Below the pieces are notes generated by a model. It ran no database searches, was not told the DNA's origin, and saw only the letters and a program-made list of their open reading frames with translations. A program made the position numbers and the translations under genes. From Myxococcales bacterium (lineage in GTDB: Bacteria > Myxococcota_A > Polyangia > Fen-1088): a stretch of 55,173 nt of DNA. Positions 22,969-48,830 of this stretch are shown here, in pieces. Location: the NCBI GenBank assembly GCA_003158455.1, contig PMJO01000169.1, positions 1 through 55,173 of the forward strand. Direction: 5' to 3'. Numbering within the stretch: position 1 is the stretch's first letter; each line of letters begins with the position of its first letter.

Positions 22969-23104
22969 CCACAACCTGCCGAGAACAGCGCAGGTCTGGA
23001 CCTGCGCGCACCCGGAGACCAGCAATCGCCGCGGCGATCGCCACATCATGTAGACTGTGTGCCATGATTGCGCGTCGCGTAAAGCTCCCGGTCGGGCCCT
23101 AGCG

Positions 23105-26100
23105 ATGTCGTTCGTAGGCACAGATCGGTTCAAAGTCATCCGCCTCCTCGGCAGCGGGAGCATGGGTACCGTGTATCTGGTCTTCGATCGACAGCTAGGC
23201 ATGGAGGTTGCGCTCAAGCTGCTGGACCTTTGGGACGGCATGGACTTGTATCGGTTCAAAGGCGAGTTCCGCGCCCTCGCAGACATCAAGCACCCCAACC
23301 TGGCCACTCTGCACGAGCTGATCGGCGAGGGGCCACTGTGGTTCTTCACCATGGAGTACGTGGCGGGCGTGCCCTTTGACCATTTCCTGTTGGGCGCAGC
23401 GCCGGCGAGCCACGTCCCAGTGGCCTCCGTGTCGAAATCGGTTGACACCCAACGCACCACCAAACCCGGGCGGGCCACGTCTTCTCCGCAACCCGATCGG
23501 CCGCGGCCGGAATGGGCCCGTCGCGACGCTGAACCTGTGCTGACGCGGGCGACGCCACGCGCGCAACCTGATCGCCGGCGGCTGCACATGACACTGCGGC
23601 AGCTCTGTGCTGGGGTGCATGCCATGCACCGGGCCGGCTGCATTCACCGCGATCTCAAGCCGTCGAACGTGCTAGTGACACCGGAGGGCCGAGTGGTGGT
23701 GCTGGATTTCGGCCTCGCCCGACCGGCCGGAACGCGGTCGTTCGGGGGCGACGGGCTGACCGGAACCCCGGCCTACATGGCGCCCGAGCAGGCGAAGGGC
23801 GGGCTCTCGCAGCCCGCTGCCGACTGGTACTCCGTGGGCGCCATGCTGTACGAGGTGCTGACCGGACGCCTGCCCCATCAAGGCGACATGATGGAGATTC
23901 TGCTCAAGAAGCAGAGCGAGGAGCCGCCCGCACCCATCGCAGTGGATCCCCTGGCTGATCCCGAATTGAGTCGGCTGTGTGTGCAGCTTCTGCGGCGCGA
24001 TCCAGCGCAGCGTCCCGGTGGCGCGGAGATCTTGGCCCAGTTCGACGCCGGCGCCACGCCCCCGCCACTGTCTGAGGCTGAAACGGGGACGATTCGGGCT
24101 GGCGCCCCGCTTTTCATCGGACGCACGGAAGAGATGCGGGCCCTGCGCCGCGGCTACGGCAGCGCGTGCGACGGCAACCTTGCTCTGGTGCTGGTCCAGG
24201 GCGCTTCCGGCATCGGCAAGACCGCGCTGGTCGAACGCTTCTTGGATCAGATCACAGCCGCCGAACCGTTTCGCCGGCCTCTCATCCTGCGCGGCCGCTG
24301 CCACGAGCGCGAGACGCTGCCCTTCAAGGCCTTCGACAGCATCGTGGATGCGCTCAGTTCCCGGCTGGCTGGCCTGGGTGCCGCCGAGCTGGCGCAGGTG
24401 TTGCCGGTGGGGGTCGCGTATTTGTCCGAGATCTTCCCGGTGTTGTGCCGGCTGGAGCGACTGGAACACGCACACGACTGGCTGCCGAAGATTCACGACG
24501 CGAATGAGCTGCGCAACCGAGCCTTTTCCGGATTTCACGAGCTGCTCAAGCGCTTGGCGCAACGACAGCCGGTGGTGGCTTTCATCGACGATCTGCAGTG
24601 GGCCGACCGCGACAGCTTCGTGCTCTTGCAGGCGCTGCTACGAAACGCCAGCGTGCCTGGCTTGATGCTGGTGGCCACCTGCCGGCCGGTTTCCCCGGAC
24701 GATGCGCTGGCGGCAGTGCTGAGCGAGATCGAGGCACATCCCACGGTGATGCGTGTGCAGATCGGCCCGCTCTCGCCCGAGGCGGTCTCGGCCCTCGTGG
24801 ATCGGCAAGCCGACTTGGGCGAGCTTGACCAGCCGGTCAAGCAGCGCCTGGCCGAGTCGGTGGTGCAGGAAGCGGGCGGCAACCCGCTATTCACGCTGGA
24901 ACTGCTGCGCTACCTCTACGACGTGGTGTTGCCGCGGGACGGGTCCGTGGCCTTCAGCGCGGGAAACGCCGTGAGCCTGGACGCCCTGATCCTGGAGCGT
25001 CTGCGCACCTTGCCCGCACAAAGCCAGCGTCTGCTAGAGGTCATCGCGGTGGCAGGTGATCCACTGCCACAGAAGGCGCTGGCCGACGCAGCCGGCGTGC
25101 CCCTCGGGTGCGAGGATTGGGAGCGTGGCATCTCGGCCCTGGCGCAAGCGCGTTTGATCCGGCGCGCGGGCGGACAGGGATCGGACTTGGTCGAGCCGTA
25201 CCACGACCGCATAGGCGAGGCGGTGCTGAGCAGCCTGGACGAGGCGACGCTGCGCCAGCTGCGCACCGGCATCGCGCACGCCATCGAAAAATGGGGCCGT
25301 GAGCGCACCGACATGCTGTCCCGCTACTGGTTGGAGGCGGATGACCACGAGCGCGCCAAGTACTACGCGCGCGAGGCGGCGATCCAGGCACGCACCAAGC
25401 TGGCCTTCGATCGCGCCGCGCAGCTATACCAAACCGCGGCGGCGCTGGAGTCGGATCACGGGCCAAGACGCGAGCTTCTCCACGCGCTGGGTGACTGCCA
25501 GGCCTGCAACGGAATGCCCTCGCTGGCAGCGGAGGCGTACCAGCAGGCCGCCGCGCTGAGCGGGCCTGAACTGGCGCTCCGCTTGCATCACCTGGCGGCT
25601 GAGCAGCTTCTGCGCGGAGGCCATATCGTGCGCGGGCTCGAGATCGTGGGCGAAGTGCTGGATCAAGCCGGGCTGCACCTGGCGCGCGGTCCGCGGCGCG
25701 CGCTTTGGGCAGTGACCTGGCGCCTGCTGTGGCTGCGCGTGCGCGGAATCAAGTTCGAGGAACGGCCGCCCGCCAGCATACCGGCCGAGCAGGCCCACCT
25801 GCTCGACGTGCTGTGGTCGGTGAATATCGGTCTGGGCGTGGTGGACACCCTGCGCGCCGACGATTTCCTGCTGCGTTTTGTCCTGCTGGCACTCAAGGCT
25901 GGGGATATCCGGCGGGTGGCACAGGGACTGGCCGTGCTGGCCGGACAACTGGCGGCGCTAGGCAGCTCGCACCAGCGCTGGGCGGCTCGCCTGGCGGCGC
26001 AGTCCGAGGTGCTGGCCCGCCGATCGTCGGACGCAGCGACCATAGGGTTGGCACGCATGAGCAAGGCTCTGGTGCGCTACTTCGCGGGCGAGTGGGACGC

Positions 26101-26980
26101 GGTGGCGACCGAACTCATCGCGATCGAGCAGTACCTGCTCACGCACTGTCTGAACGTAAGCTGGGAGCTGGCAACCACGCGCTCGTTCGCGTGCTTCTCG
26201 CTACGTCTGTCAGGCCGACTGCGCGAACTGGCCGAATGCTTCGATCGCTACACCGCGGACGCCGATCGCACCGGCGACCGCTACCTCGCCACCAACCTGC
26301 GCACCTACCAGTCCATGGTCTGGCTAATCCGCGACGATCCCGAGCGCGCCGCGCGCGAGATAGAGGGCGTCCTGGATCCCTGGCCGCGCGACCTGTACCA
26401 CGTGCAGCACTTCTTCCACCTGTACGCGCGCTGCGAGCAGGCGCTGTACCGCGAGCGTCCCGAGCAGGCCAGGGATGCGCTGGCGGCCGAGCAGCCGCGG
26501 CTTGTCGGCTCCGCGCTGCTCAAGATCAACGGCATCCGCATCGAACACGATTGGATCTCGGGCCGCGTGGCACTGGCCGTGGCCGAGAGGCTGCCGGTGG
26601 AGGAGCGCGCCCCGCACCTGCGCCGAGCGCGCCGGCACGCGCGCAGCCTGGCCCGGGCTGTGCACCAGACCGGCGTCGCCATGGGCGCCCTGCTGGAGGC
26701 CGGCAGCTGCTGGCTGGAACCATCGCCATCGCGTGCCTTGGCCGTGGTCGCACTGGAGCGCGCTGTGGCTACCGCTGAGGCAGCCGGCGCCCCGTTGCTG
26801 GCCGAGGCGGGCCGCCGCTGGTTGGGCGAGTTACACGGCAACCCCGCGGGCGAGAATCTCCGCGAAAGCTCGCAGCGCTGGATGACCGACCGGGGCGTAA
26901 AGGATCCTGATCGCTTTGCCCACCTGATCGCACCTGGCTTCGCGTGCCCGCAGCCCGGGTGCGACGCCGTCAGCTTGTGA
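23105..26980 (+). CDS. Large Ser/Thr kinase fused to AAA-type ATPase and TPR region (PknK-like regulator)
   Basis: The 1291-residue protein starts with a kinase domain (GSGSMG 16-21, Lys38, HRDLKPSN, DFGLARP, GTPAYMAPEQ). A ~65-residue basic, Pro-rich insertion sits before the catalytic loop. After the kinase comes a STAND/AAA ATPase module (FIGRTEEM, Walker A GASGIGKT near residue 366, Walker B VVAFIDDLQWAD near 490). The final ~550 residues are helical repeats of TPR type. No HTH output domain is seen, so signalling is probably by phosphorylation. The ATG at 23105 begins exactly at the kinase fold. The stop codon coincides with the first bases of a 91-bp repeat shared with the hrpB 3' end, so the present C-terminus may have been created or trimmed by that event. 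Confidence 0.92.
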   Translation: MSFVGTDRFKVIRLLGSGSMGTVYLVFDRQLGMEVALKLLDLWDGMDLYRFKGEFRALADIKHPNLATLHELIGEGPLWFFTMEYVAGVPFDHFLLGAAPASHVPVASVSKSVDTQRTTKPGRATSSPQPDRPRPEWARRDAEPVLTRATPRAQPDRRRLHMTLRQLCAGVHAMHRAGCIHRDLKPSNVLVTPEGRVVVLDFGLARPAGTRSFGGDGLTGTPAYMAPEQAKGGLSQPAADWYSVGAMLYEVLTGRLPHQGDMMEILLKKQSEEPPAPIAVDPLADPELSRLCVQLLRRDPAQRPGGAEILAQFDAGATPPPLSEAETGTIRAGAPLFIGRTEEMRALRRGYGSACDGNLALVLVQGASGIGKTALVERFLDQITAAEPFRRPLILRGRCHERETLPFKAFDSIVDALSSRLAGLGAAELAQVLPVGVAYLSEIFPVLCRLERLEHAHDWLPKIHDANELRNRAFSGFHELLKRLAQRQPVVAFIDDLQWADRDSFVLLQALLRNASVPGLMLVATCRPVSPDDALAAVLSEIEAHPTVMRVQIGPLSPEAVSALVDRQADLGELDQPVKQRLAESVVQEAGGNPLFTLELLRYLYDVVLPRDGSVAFSAGNAVSLDALILERLRTLPAQSQRLLEVIAVAGDPLPQKALADAAGVPLGCEDWERGISALAQARLIRRAGGQGSDLVEPYHDRIGEAVLSSLDEATLRQLRTGIAHAIEKWGRERTDMLSRYWLEADDHERAKYYAREAAIQARTKLAFDRAAQLYQTAAALESDHGPRRELLHALGDCQACNGMPSLAAEAYQQAAALSGPELALRLHHLAAEQLLRGGHIVRGLEIVGEVLDQAGLHLARGPRRALWAVTWRLLWLRVRGIKFEERPPASIPAEQAHLLDVLWSVNIGLGVVDTLRADDFLLRFVLLALKAGDIRRVAQGLAVLAGQLAALGSSHQRWAARLAAQSEVLARRSSDAATIGLARMSKALVRYFAGEWDAVATELIAIEQYLLTHCLNVSWELATTRSFACFSLRLSGRLRELAECFDRYTADADRTGDRYLATNLRTYQSMVWLIRDDPERAAREIEGVLDPWPRDLYHVQHFFHLYARCEQALYRERPEQARDALAAEQPRLVGSALLKINGIRIEHDWISGRVALAVAERLPVEERAPHLRRARRHARSLARAVHQTGVAMGALLEAGSCWLEPSPSRALAVVALERAVATAEAAGAPLLAEAGRRWLGELHGNPAGENLRESSQRWMTDRGVKDPDRFAHLIAPGFACPQPGCDAVSL

Positions 26981-27068
26981 ACGCGCTCACCTGCGCTGCG
27001 GTGGCGTCCCTGGCTTGTGCGGTGCCGGCGCTGTCGCGCTGGCGCCATCCTCGGGCCAAGGGTGGCAC
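26978..27068 (-). repeat. Displaced copy of the hrpB 3' end (91 bp)
   Basis: These bases match 33779-33869 at about 81 of 91 positions without gaps. On the minus strand both copies read HPWPEDGASAT ... PGT.PQRR and stop, the C-terminus of HrpB at 33788. The copy begins at the TGA of the large kinase gene and directly precedes the rearranged BNR gene, so it marks a recombination junction. Confidence 0.8.
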
Positions 27069-27080
27069 AGCCGCAAATAC

Positions 27081-27773
27081 CTATGTCAAGTGTTTCCGAT
27101 TTCCGGCGGAAACCCAGGTCACACCCGCATCGACCGATCGATAGATCGAGCCGCCATTGACGACGGCGACCATTCGGCTGCCGTCGGCAGACTGTTCGCC
27201 GCCGGAGACTACGTCTACGCGTCCACCGACTCGGGTGTGACGTGGAATCCCGGGGCAAAGCCGACGGGCTTCGAGGCCATAGCATCTTCGACGGACGGGA
27301 CCCACTTGCTGGGCGCCACGTTCTCTGGCCATCTGGATGTCTCGACCGATTCGGGCGCGACGTGGACTCAACGGGGCCCGGTGCTCGAATGGACAGCAGT
27401 GGCGTCATCCAGCTCGGGACAGAATCTGATCGCGGTTGCTCAAGACGGCGGCCACGTCTACCTTTCGTCTGACTACGGCGTCACTTGGACGCCTCGCGAT
27501 CCCGTCCACGACTTCATGTCGGTGGCTTCATCGGCCGACGGCAGCAATTTGGTAACGGCGGCTCGCAACGGCTTCCTCTATGTTTCGACCGATTTCGGTG
27601 CGACCTGGGCCCAGTCCGGTTCCGTGCAGAACTGGTCGGCCGTTGCCTCATCGGCGGATGGCCTGACCCTGCTCGCCGCGGTCGACGGTGGATACCTGTA
27701 CCGGTCGACCGATGGCGGTGCCCACTGGGGCCATAGCGCAATAGTCTTCCTGGTCGGTGAGCCGACAGGATAG
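27081..27773 (+). pseudogene. Broken BNR/sortilin-type propeller gene with one repeat inverted
   Basis: From about 27195 the plus strand encodes four to five propeller repeats of the type SADGSNLVTAARNGFLYVSTDFGATW, ending at 27773 shortly after YRSTDGGAHWGH. The expected preceding repeat is found instead on the minus strand at 27190-27081 (SADGSRMVAVVNGGSIYRSVDAGVTW). The 5' part has therefore been inverted, and there is no signal peptide or credible start. Families with such repeats are secreted sialidase-, Ycf48- or Vps10-like propellers. A short unrelated protein starting near 27195 cannot be excluded, but no ribosome-binding site is visible. Confidence 0.65.
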
Positions 27774-27784
27774 GGTGTCACCTT

Positions 27785-28606
27785 GTGAGGCAAGTGCCCG
27801 ACAATAAGTTTCAGCGCCGCTACGGACCGTGGGCCATCATCCTCGGTGGTTCGGAGGGAATTGGCGCTGCGTTCGCCCGAGATCTCGGAAATCGAGGGTT
27901 CAACCTCGTGCTCGTGGCTCGGCGGCCGGCGCCGCTTGATGATCTGGCCACTCGATTGCGCCAGCAGCAAGGTGTGGAGGTGAGGACCTTGGCCCTCGAC
28001 CTTGGTGCGCGCGAGGCATCTGACGTCATCATCGAGGCCACCCGGCCTCTCGACGTGGGCCTGCTGGTTTGTAGCGCTGCCGACTCGCGGGTTGCCTCGT
28101 TCTTCGATCTAAGTCTGGATGAAAAGCTGCACATGCTCGACGTCAACTGCCGCACGCCGCTGGCTGTCGTTCATGGACTGGGCCAACGGATGAAGGCGCG
28201 GGGGCGCGGAGGGATCATCCTCATGTCGTCGCTGGCCGGGGTGTACGGGGGCCCGTTTGTCGCGACCTACGCGGCGACCAAGGCCTTCGCGCGCTTGCTT
28301 GGCGAGAGCCTTTCGGCCGAGCTCGGCAGCGCAGGCGTCGATGTCATTGCTTGTGTCGCCGGACCGACCCACACGCCCACGTACGAACGCGAGGTCGCGG
28401 GCGATGCCCAGGTGATGCGTCCCGAGGTCGTTGTCGCCGAAACCCTGGCGGCCCTCGGCCGGCGCCCCAGCCTGATTCCAGGCCGGCGCAATCGCATCCT
28501 CCATTGGGTCATCAATCAACTTCCACGCGGCTGGGTGATAAAACTCGTGGCAGCAAACATGCGCAAAATCCTTGCACGCGGAAGCAATCGGCCGACGACA
28601 CCTTGA
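27785..28606 (+). CDS. Short-chain dehydrogenase/reductase (17beta-HSD12/3-ketoacyl-CoA-reductase-like)
   Basis: The 273-residue Rossmann-fold enzyme has the cofactor motif GGSEGIGAA near residue 21, with an Arg pair in LVARRP suggesting NADP(H). The usual NAG is replaced by CSAA. The catalytic Ser is in MSSLAG and Tyr-Lys in YAATK. The opening (YGPWAIILGGSEGIG) and the extended C-terminus with a hydrophobic stretch recall the 17beta-hydroxysteroid dehydrogenase type 12 / very-long-chain ketoacyl reductase group. Only 11 nt separate it from the ERG2-like gene, so it is probably in one operon, and a keto-lipid or ketosteroid substrate is a reasonable inference. The start is GTG at 27785. Confidence 0.88.
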   Translation: MRQVPDNKFQRRYGPWAIILGGSEGIGAAFARDLGNRGFNLVLVARRPAPLDDLATRLRQQQGVEVRTLALDLGAREASDVIIEATRPLDVGLLVCSAADSRVASFFDLSLDEKLHMLDVNCRTPLAVVHGLGQRMKARGRGGIILMSSLAGVYGGPFVATYAATKAFARLLGESLSAELGSAGVDVIACVAGPTHTPTYEREVAGDAQVMRPEVVVAETLAALGRRPSLIPGRRNRILHWVINQLPRGWVIKLVAANMRKILARGSNRPTTP

Positions 28607-28617
28607 GAGGAGAAATC

Positions 28618-29310
28618 ATGGGAAAGTACCTGTTCGATCCCGATGTGGTGCACGAGTGTGCCATGCAGTGCTTGGGCAAGCCCAAACCCCAGATGTTCGA
28701 TGTGTTTGCCCAGGCGCTGGCCGCACACCATCCCAACATTCTCGATTTTTCGCAGCCCTGGATCTACAGCATCGCGGGGGGCGCGCTGATCCAGATGAAG
28801 CTCTACTACGCCTCGCTGAACGAATACATCATGATTTGGGGCACGCCCATCGGATCGGAGGGCCATTCGGGAAGACACTTCACCGGTTTCTGGGACACGG
28901 TCATCGACGGCGAGACCTGGTATTACGGAGAGGGTCAATTCGAGAAATCGGTCTACGTCCCTGGCGACCGGATCTACGTCGGCCCAGGCCAGGCGCGCGC
29001 CATGAATTTCACCAATGGCGTCTGGGCGGTGGAATATGCGCGCGGCCGCCTGCCCCTCAGCATTCCCTTCGGCATCGCCGATGAAATTCTGAGCTGCCTC
29101 GACTTCCTGACGGTAATTCGCACGCTCAGCATCTATACCGACCTAATCTTCCGCAATGTGCGCCGCCGGTTGGGTGTGGTGGCAGGCTTTCCCGCTGCGG
29201 CAATCGCCGCCGTGGCCCGTGCGGTGACTCGTAGATTGGCGCCTCCGCCCGAGGTGGACGCAATCCCGAAAGACAATATCCGCCGGCGATCGCGCCCGCG
29301 GGCCGAGTAG
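28618..29310 (+). CDS. ERG2/sigma-1 receptor family protein (sterol C8-isomerase-like)
   Basis: The 230-residue protein starts at an ATG with a strong AGAGGAG 5 nt upstream. It aligns by eye over most of its length with fungal ERG2 and the mammalian sigma-1 receptor: an AGGA motif (53-56), SLNEYIMIWGT, GSEGHSGR (79-86), WDTVIDG, EKSVYVPGD, VGPGQA, WAVEYARG and IPFGIADEILSCLDFLT. The paired acidic residues that bind ligand in sigma-1 (Asp126, Glu172) correspond to Asp93 and Glu139. Yeast ERG2 moves the sterol double bond from C8 to C7. The N-terminal membrane helix of sigma-1 is missing. A basic C-terminal tail of ~45 residues is extra. Cytoplasmic, possibly membrane-associated; substrate unproven. 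Confidence 0.88.
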   Translation: MGKYLFDPDVVHECAMQCLGKPKPQMFDVFAQALAAHHPNILDFSQPWIYSIAGGALIQMKLYYASLNEYIMIWGTPIGSEGHSGRHFTGFWDTVIDGETWYYGEGQFEKSVYVPGDRIYVGPGQARAMNFTNGVWAVEYARGRLPLSIPFGIADEILSCLDFLTVIRTLSIYTDLIFRNVRRRLGVVAGFPAAAIAAVARAVTRRLAPPPEVDAIPKDNIRRRSRPRAE

Positions 29311-48650: not shown

Positions 48651-48725
48651 TGGTGACCCCATCGGGACTTGAACCCGAGATTACGCCGTGAGAGGGCGCC
48701 GTCCTAACCGCTAGACCATGGGGCC
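48651..48725 (-). tRNA. tRNA-Glu (CTC anticodon)
   Basis: The minus strand folds as a cloverleaf: acceptor GGCCCCA/TGGGGTC, D-stem GTC/GAC, anticodon stem GCGCC/GGCGT with loop CTCTCAC (anticodon CTC), T-stem TCGGG/CCCGA with loop TTCAAGT. The 3' CCA is encoded. Its 3' end is the probable integration site of the remnant island to the left. Confidence 0.96.
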
Positions 48726-48759
48726 AGTCGTATCTTTCAATTCTCTCACGCTAGCTTTG

Positions 48760-48830
48760 TTCGGGGACAAGGATTCGAACCTTGATAGCCAGATCCAGAG
48801 TCTGGCGTCCTGCCATTAGACGATCCCCGA
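48760..48830 (-). tRNA. tRNA-Gln (CTG anticodon)
   Basis: The minus strand gives acceptor TCGGGGA/TCCCCGA, D-stem GTC/GAC, anticodon stem CCAGA/TCTGG with loop CTCTGGA (anticodon CTG), and T-stem CAAGG/CCTTG with loop TTCGAAT. CCA is not encoded (ACAA follows), so the CCA-adding enzyme must complete it. It is 34 bp upstream of tRNA-Glu and probably cotranscribed. Confidence 0.95.

Follow-up and report, generated by a model that had tools for sequence, protein, structure and literature searches.

A distinct bacterial branch of the ERG2/sigma-1 receptor family is repeatedly encoded next to one SDR family

Introduction

What a homologue of fungal ERG2 and of the sigma-1 receptor might do in a bacterium, encoded directly behind an SDR-family oxidoreductase, is the question raised by a gene pair within a 55,173-nucleotide stretch of DNA from a Myxococcales bacterium, which is referred to as the window (Table 1). 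The sigma-1 receptor (S1R) is a drug target, and to our knowledge its fold is otherwise known only as that of a sterol isomerase and of a ligand-binding protein. We know of no catalysis by S1R itself, and of no enzyme activity in the PF04622 family other than that of a double-bond isomerase. A literature search found no paper describing the bacterial PF04622 proteins as a family; the sterol genes of E. salina and Calothrix have been described in a study that does not name the branch treated here (PMC10202945). A preliminary description of the locus, made from the DNA sequence alone, is followed up in this work; all of its coordinates are correct.

Table 1. The gene pair and the signal between its two genes, in positions of the window
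Feature	Position	Strand	Evidence
SDR-family NAD(P)-dependent oxidoreductase, 273 aa, GTG start	27785..28606	+	PF00106, E 2e-30
Ribosome-binding site GAGGAG	28607..28612	+	Sequence reading; 5 nt before the ATG of the ERG2-like gene
ERG2/sigma-1-receptor-like protein, 230 aa	28618..29310	+	PF04622, 5hk1 match, model fold, clade, residues

Results

Identity and fold of the ERG2-like protein

The 28618-29310 protein (the window protein) matches the profile PF04622 (ERG2_Sigma1R) over residues 3-181 with 159.2 bits (E 1.2e-46), the curated cut-off of this profile being 21 bits, and human S1R (5hk1) is matched with an E-value of 1.3e-31. Its AlphaFold model, with a mean pLDDT of 77.6, can be superimposed on S1R structures with a TM-score of 0.74 and an rmsd of 1.9 (Foldseek E 6e-16), and the best structural matches other than S1R are cupins (E about 1e-6). 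S1R (SIGMAR1; 5hk1, 6djz, 7w2b) is thereby the closest solved fold, at 28-30% sequence identity. The window protein displays a cupin barrel, followed by C-terminal helices and then by a tail, which partly keeps the motif PEVxxIPxxNIRWF of the branch described below. Chance similarity or a wrong reading frame is ruled out by the PF04622, 5hk1 and structural matches. According to the alignment, Tyr70, Asp93 and Glu139 correspond to Tyr103, Asp126 and Glu172 of human S1R, so that all three residues have counterparts. Whereas S1R is an anchored ligand-binding protein of the ER, the window protein possesses neither its N-terminal membrane anchor nor any other N-terminal hydrophobic segment, and its first residue corresponds to about residue 34 of the human protein. 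These results show that the window protein belongs to the ERG2/sigma-1 receptor family and shares both the sigma-1 fold and the Tyr-Asp-Glu polar triad. The preliminary description had claimed homology to PF04622, counterparts of Asp126 and Glu172 and loss of the anchor, all of which are borne out, and the cupin-like sigma-1 fold to be expected from such a homologue is present in the predicted structure.

A separate branch scattered across four phyla

Among 84,980 species genomes scanned, 21 loci encode products that are 56-71% identical to the window protein, most of them along its whole length; the nearest sequences outside this branch reach at most 48% identity. The window protein and its relatives form one clade with a bootstrap of 100 and an SH-aLRT of 99 (21 to 22 rows), and the stem of the branch measures 0.55 changes per column. 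Yeast ERG2 was part of a first tree and was omitted from the final one. The branch comprises Chloroflexota (mostly Dehalococcoidia), Actinomycetota, Spirochaetota (Treponema and others) and two Myxococcota. Its carriers among the Actinomycetota include Micromonosporaceae, Amycolatopsis and, with the habitat as labelled in the records, Propionibacteriaceae and Bifidobacteriaceae of the termite gut. Two members are named isolates (Rugosimonospora africana and Amycolatopsis alkalitolerans); most are metagenome bins, in which the absence of a gene may partly be a gap and some taxa may be mis-binned. Though most members are such bins, the scatter across four phyla suggests horizontal transfer. Plasmid-borne copies were not matched in PLSDB.

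Bacterial ERG2 proteins of the sterol type (from Myxococcota, Cyanobacteria and others; for example L107, L131 and L106) belong to the same family, likewise lack the anchor, in some cases have Asp at the Asp126 position, and are 35-48% identical to the window protein, the comparison with those of Myxococcota giving 34-45%. However, they are found in genomes with an oxidosqualene cyclase and often beside sterol genes, unlike the branch of the window protein. Membership of the window protein in the sterol-type group of Myxococcota is ruled out by its separate clade (100/99). An alternative raised earlier, that the protein is a sterol-independent ancestor of the sigma-1 fold, thus holds in one part: a sterol-independent member fits better, whereas the tree gives a separate branch only and no ancestral status.

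ERG2-family proteins were also observed in a Lokiarchaeota bin whose genome lacks an oxidosqualene cyclase (L145:8124-8690, grouping with the protein of the spirochaete bin L148), and in several Mycobacterium species (L116, L119, L123, L125-L127). Four of the Mycobacterium genomes were tested and contain no oxidosqualene cyclase; in both loci inspected (L116 and L126), a TetR-type gene follows the ERG2 gene.

The adjoining SDR gene

The SDR of the window, whose GTG was read from the sequence and is putative as the exact start, displays in the alignment the glycine motif GGSEGIG, the motif SS and the catalytic YAATK, and thus has both the Rossmann and the Ser-Tyr-Lys signatures. Its stop codon (28604-28606) is followed by GAGGAG and then by the ATG at 28618, leaving a gap of 11 nt, so that the short distance and the strong ribosome-binding site described earlier are both confirmed. 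The best solved relative is 5fyd/5gt9 (E 1.1e-31), which we take to be the 7beta-hydroxysteroid dehydrogenase (7beta-HSDH) of Collinsella. By profile score, the nearest characterised SDRs are 7beta-HSDH (NCBIfam NF050024) and mycolate reductase (NF040690). Since the scores of 130.4 bits against a cut-off of 300 and of 133 bits against a cut-off of 380, respectively, stay far below these limits, the function of neither enzyme can be transferred. The window SDR constitutes a different SDR group, and the score against NF050024 rules it out as an equivalog of 7beta-HSDH.

A homologue of this SDR directly adjoins the ERG2-like gene in 15 of the 21 relatives, compared with none at the 59 other ERG2 loci, not all of which lie in cyclase genomes (Fisher p 8e-12). 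In eleven relatives (L083, L085-L091, L093, L095, L096) the SDR gene is situated upstream on the same strand, mostly at a spacing of 6-33 nt, once overlapping and once 143 nt away, and in four others (L094, L101-L103) the two genes are convergent. The gene stands without an adjoining SDR in five relatives (L084, L097-L100), and L092 is cut by the contig end. The branch is distinct and strongly conserved, and it is found repeatedly next to one SDR family, in two gene arrangements.

In the SDR tree the paired SDRs represent one family with two clades rather than a single clade, and the window SDR groups with its counterparts in L101-L103 (92/80). The SDR family also has unlinked members in the same genomes, as exemplified by a 48% paralogue at C228 in the genome of the window. 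The association between SDR and ERG2-like gene therefore arose on two or more occasions, or on one occasion followed by losses, and either history argues for a functional link. The pairing noted in the preliminary description recurs in other phyla and is therefore not incidental.

A larger conserved operon was not found around the ERG2-like gene: among the relatives only the SDR recurs, and no other conserved neighbour indicates the substrate. The upstream open reading frame at 27015-27773, which carries BNR repeats, was rejected as a member of the unit, as neighbour clustering gave no counterpart beside the relatives. Also just upstream of the pair (23057-26980, + strand), the window encodes a 1307-aa fusion of a serine/threonine kinase and an AAA/NACHT-type ATPase with a long C-terminal region, and tandem genes for tRNA-Glu(CTC) and tRNA-Gln(CTG) are located at 48651-48830 on the - strand. 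In two Dehalococcoidia, sequence inspection revealed a probable FeS, NrfD-like and molybdoenzyme set behind the ERG2-like gene (L086:10074-12783 and L090:2318-6290), which is not seen elsewhere in the branch.

Conservation of the pocket

The ligand nitrogen in S1R is contacted by Glu172, which Tyr103 and Asp126 hold in place (PMC6736580, which is also the source of the list of pocket residues). Within the branch, the corresponding Tyr70, Asp93 and Glu139, the predicted acid/base residues, are invariant in 22/22 sequences. The positions of Tyr103 and Glu172 do not vary in any of the 81 sequences aligned from bacteria and archaea, including that of the window, and the Asp126 position is occupied in the 59 sequences outside the branch by Asp (42), Phe (14) or Glu (3). 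Yeast ERG2 has Phe at this position. Compared with S1R, branch-specific exchanges within the pocket are V84 to S, L105 to M (21/22), F107 to W, I124 to F and W164 to F; in the window protein, V84, W89, L105, F107, I124 and W164 are replaced by S, A, M, W, F and F. Such a pattern is the one expected if catalysis were kept and the substrate changed. Fungal ERG2 (PF04622) thus shares with the window protein the family, the fold and the invariant Glu at the Glu172 position. It differs from it by an N-terminal anchor and by Phe in place of Asp at the Asp126 position, and from the branch by the pocket, by the SDR linkage and by the fact that most carriers of the branch are without sterol synthesis.

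The counterparts of Asp126 and Glu172, found as in S1R, could also be taken to mean that the ERG2-like protein is a non-catalytic ligand-binding protein or chaperone and that the SDR is the sole enzyme, particularly as yeast ERG2 and 14 of the 59 other sequences have Phe where S1R has Asp. However, the proteins of Plesiocystis (L131) and of other sterol-type members from cyclase genomes cluster with the Asp-type sequences, so that Asp does not mark a non-enzyme. Moreover, the barrel is very highly conserved and the partner is a dehydrogenase, both of which suggest catalysis and make a purely non-catalytic role very improbable.

Sterol genes in the carriers and in other Myxococcota

ERG2-family proteins were found in 34 of the 379 Myxococcota genomes sampled. 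An oxidosqualene cyclase, called from TIGR03463 matches scoring at least about 350 bits (with about 170-280 for squalene-hopene cyclases), is present in 27 of these 34 compared with 36 of the 345 others (Fisher p 8e-18). In G178, G357 and G345 fusion genes of squalene epoxidase/cyclase or epoxidase/squalene-synthase type are found no more than a few kb from the ERG2 gene, and several other Myxococcota have ERG2 beside apparent Rieske oxygenases or probable DHCR7-type reductases, as judged by sequence inspection. The fusion reading frames beside these sterol-type genes (L069, L070 and L068, in the order of the genomes) are about 1145 aa long and of two kinds, one joining squalene epoxidase to oxidosqualene cyclase and one joining squalene epoxidase, a middle segment and squalene synthase. 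The tracking of oxidosqualene cyclase by ERG2 in Myxococcota supports sterol-type ERG2 as a marker of bacterial delta8-sterol processing.

This association, and the sterol genes adjoining sterol-type ERG2, would be in line with a function of the window protein as sterol C8 isomerase in the sterol or triterpenol synthesis of its own genome, with the SDR as sterol ketoreductase. The genome indeed contains squalene synthase and two oxidosqualene-cyclase-type genes or gene pieces with the motif ITDCTAE, one on C261 (cut by the contig end) and one on C105 (containing an assembly gap), and a cyclase is also present in L102 of the same branch. However, both pieces are on contigs other than that of the pair, the window protein falls outside the sterol-type group, and the remaining 20 of the 21 relatives are without oxidosqualene cyclase (1/21, compared with 15 of 29 other ERG2 genomes; p 5e-4). 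Furthermore, squalene monooxygenase was not found in this 93%-complete MAG with either PF08491 or a myxobacterial query. Since PF08491 does detect myxobacterial epoxidases, this negative is meaningful within the 93% completeness. An ERG24-type reductase was likewise not found in the same MAG, by a search that matched no control genome. A sterol C8 isomerase of the host is therefore decidedly unlikely, even if the cyclases make a cell-made triterpenol possible for the genomes of the window and of L102. Of the two sterol genes named for a check in the preliminary description, oxidosqualene cyclase was found and squalene monooxygenase was not; of the sterol- or isoprenoid-lipid-editing unit proposed there, the role in host sterol synthesis is not supported in view of the clade and of the relatives without cyclase, and another isoprenoid lipid fits better.

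Squalene/phytoene synthase (PF00494) was not found in the genomes of 15 of the 21 branch relatives; provided that these bins are sufficiently complete, such carriers are unable to make squalene, hopanoids or sterols.

A U32-family gene (PF01136) adjoins the cyclase in the genome of the window (C261:1451-2710, L064; C105:18301-18807, L063), and U32 genes beside oxidosqualene cyclase also occur at L169, L170, L171, L173 and L189. Among 56 oxidosqualene-cyclase genomes, 9 are without squalene monooxygenase and 47 possess it; the U32 gene is present in 8 of the 9 (one truncated) compared with 6 of the 47 (p 1.7e-5). In most loci the gene immediately before it encodes a chorismate mutase fused to a DAHP synthase. 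Within the U32 family, hydroxylation without oxygen is carried out by proteins such as UbiU/UbiV, and prephenate is used by RlhA and TrhP. The U32 gene is a possible oxygen-independent substitute for squalene epoxidase, and a literature search found, within the terms tried, no paper on U32 in this place.

Discussion

The ERG2-like gene represents a new branch of a known family and not a simple sterol-synthesis enzyme. Together with the SDR it may form an oxidoreductase/double-bond isomerase cassette that is independent of the cell's own sterol synthesis; for this reading we consider the chances evenly balanced. In such a cassette, the SDR would convert a hydrophobic substrate between its secondary-alcohol and ketone forms, and the ERG2-like barrel would bind the same molecule. 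Glu139, held by Asp93 and Tyr70, could then protonate a C=C double bond and take up an adjacent proton, which would shift the double bond by one position, as ERG2 does on sterols.

Since most carriers are unable to make squalene, the substrate is most likely either an exogenous steroid (an environmental steroid or a plant or fungal sterol) or a lipid that is not derived from squalene. A precedent for combined dehydrogenase and isomerase chemistry is given by IsmA and SpiR, SDR 3beta-HSDs which oxidise cholesterol in anaerobes (PMC7435688, PMC13079761). These SDRs act alone and have no ERG2 homologue, and they offer an analogy to the pair rather than evidence of its substrate. Based on this analogy, a steroid-like exogenous substrate in particular is conceivable, albeit as a tentative and somewhat doubtful assignment.

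A lipid of the cell's own could be involved if the pair edits a linear isoprenoid such as a polyprenol or a quinone side chain, the SDR acting between alcohol and aldehyde and the ERG2-like protein shifting the double bond. Polyprenyl lipids are needed even by carriers that lack squalene synthase, and the hydrophobic pocket differs in shape from that of both S1R and sterol-type ERG2. However, 21 loci in 84,980 species are a very sparse distribution, unlike that of a function on a universal lipid, and no isoprenoid gene is conserved beside the pair, so that this possibility appears unlikely. The cassette may constitute a previously undescribed metabolic module, present in anaerobes and in further bacteria without sterols, whose isomerase of sigma-1/ERG2 fold and dedicated SDR act on a lipid of non-squalene origin, and we regard this as quite plausible, if a little short of probable.

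If true, the sigma-1 fold would here have its first enzyme function other than in sterol synthesis, and horizontal transfer would have carried it into four phyla. A soluble-looking bacterial branch, which is strongly conserved between phyla and linked to an SDR, mostly in organisms unable to make sterols, makes the chemistry of the sigma-1 fold directly testable, and it would supply anchor-free proteins for structure work.
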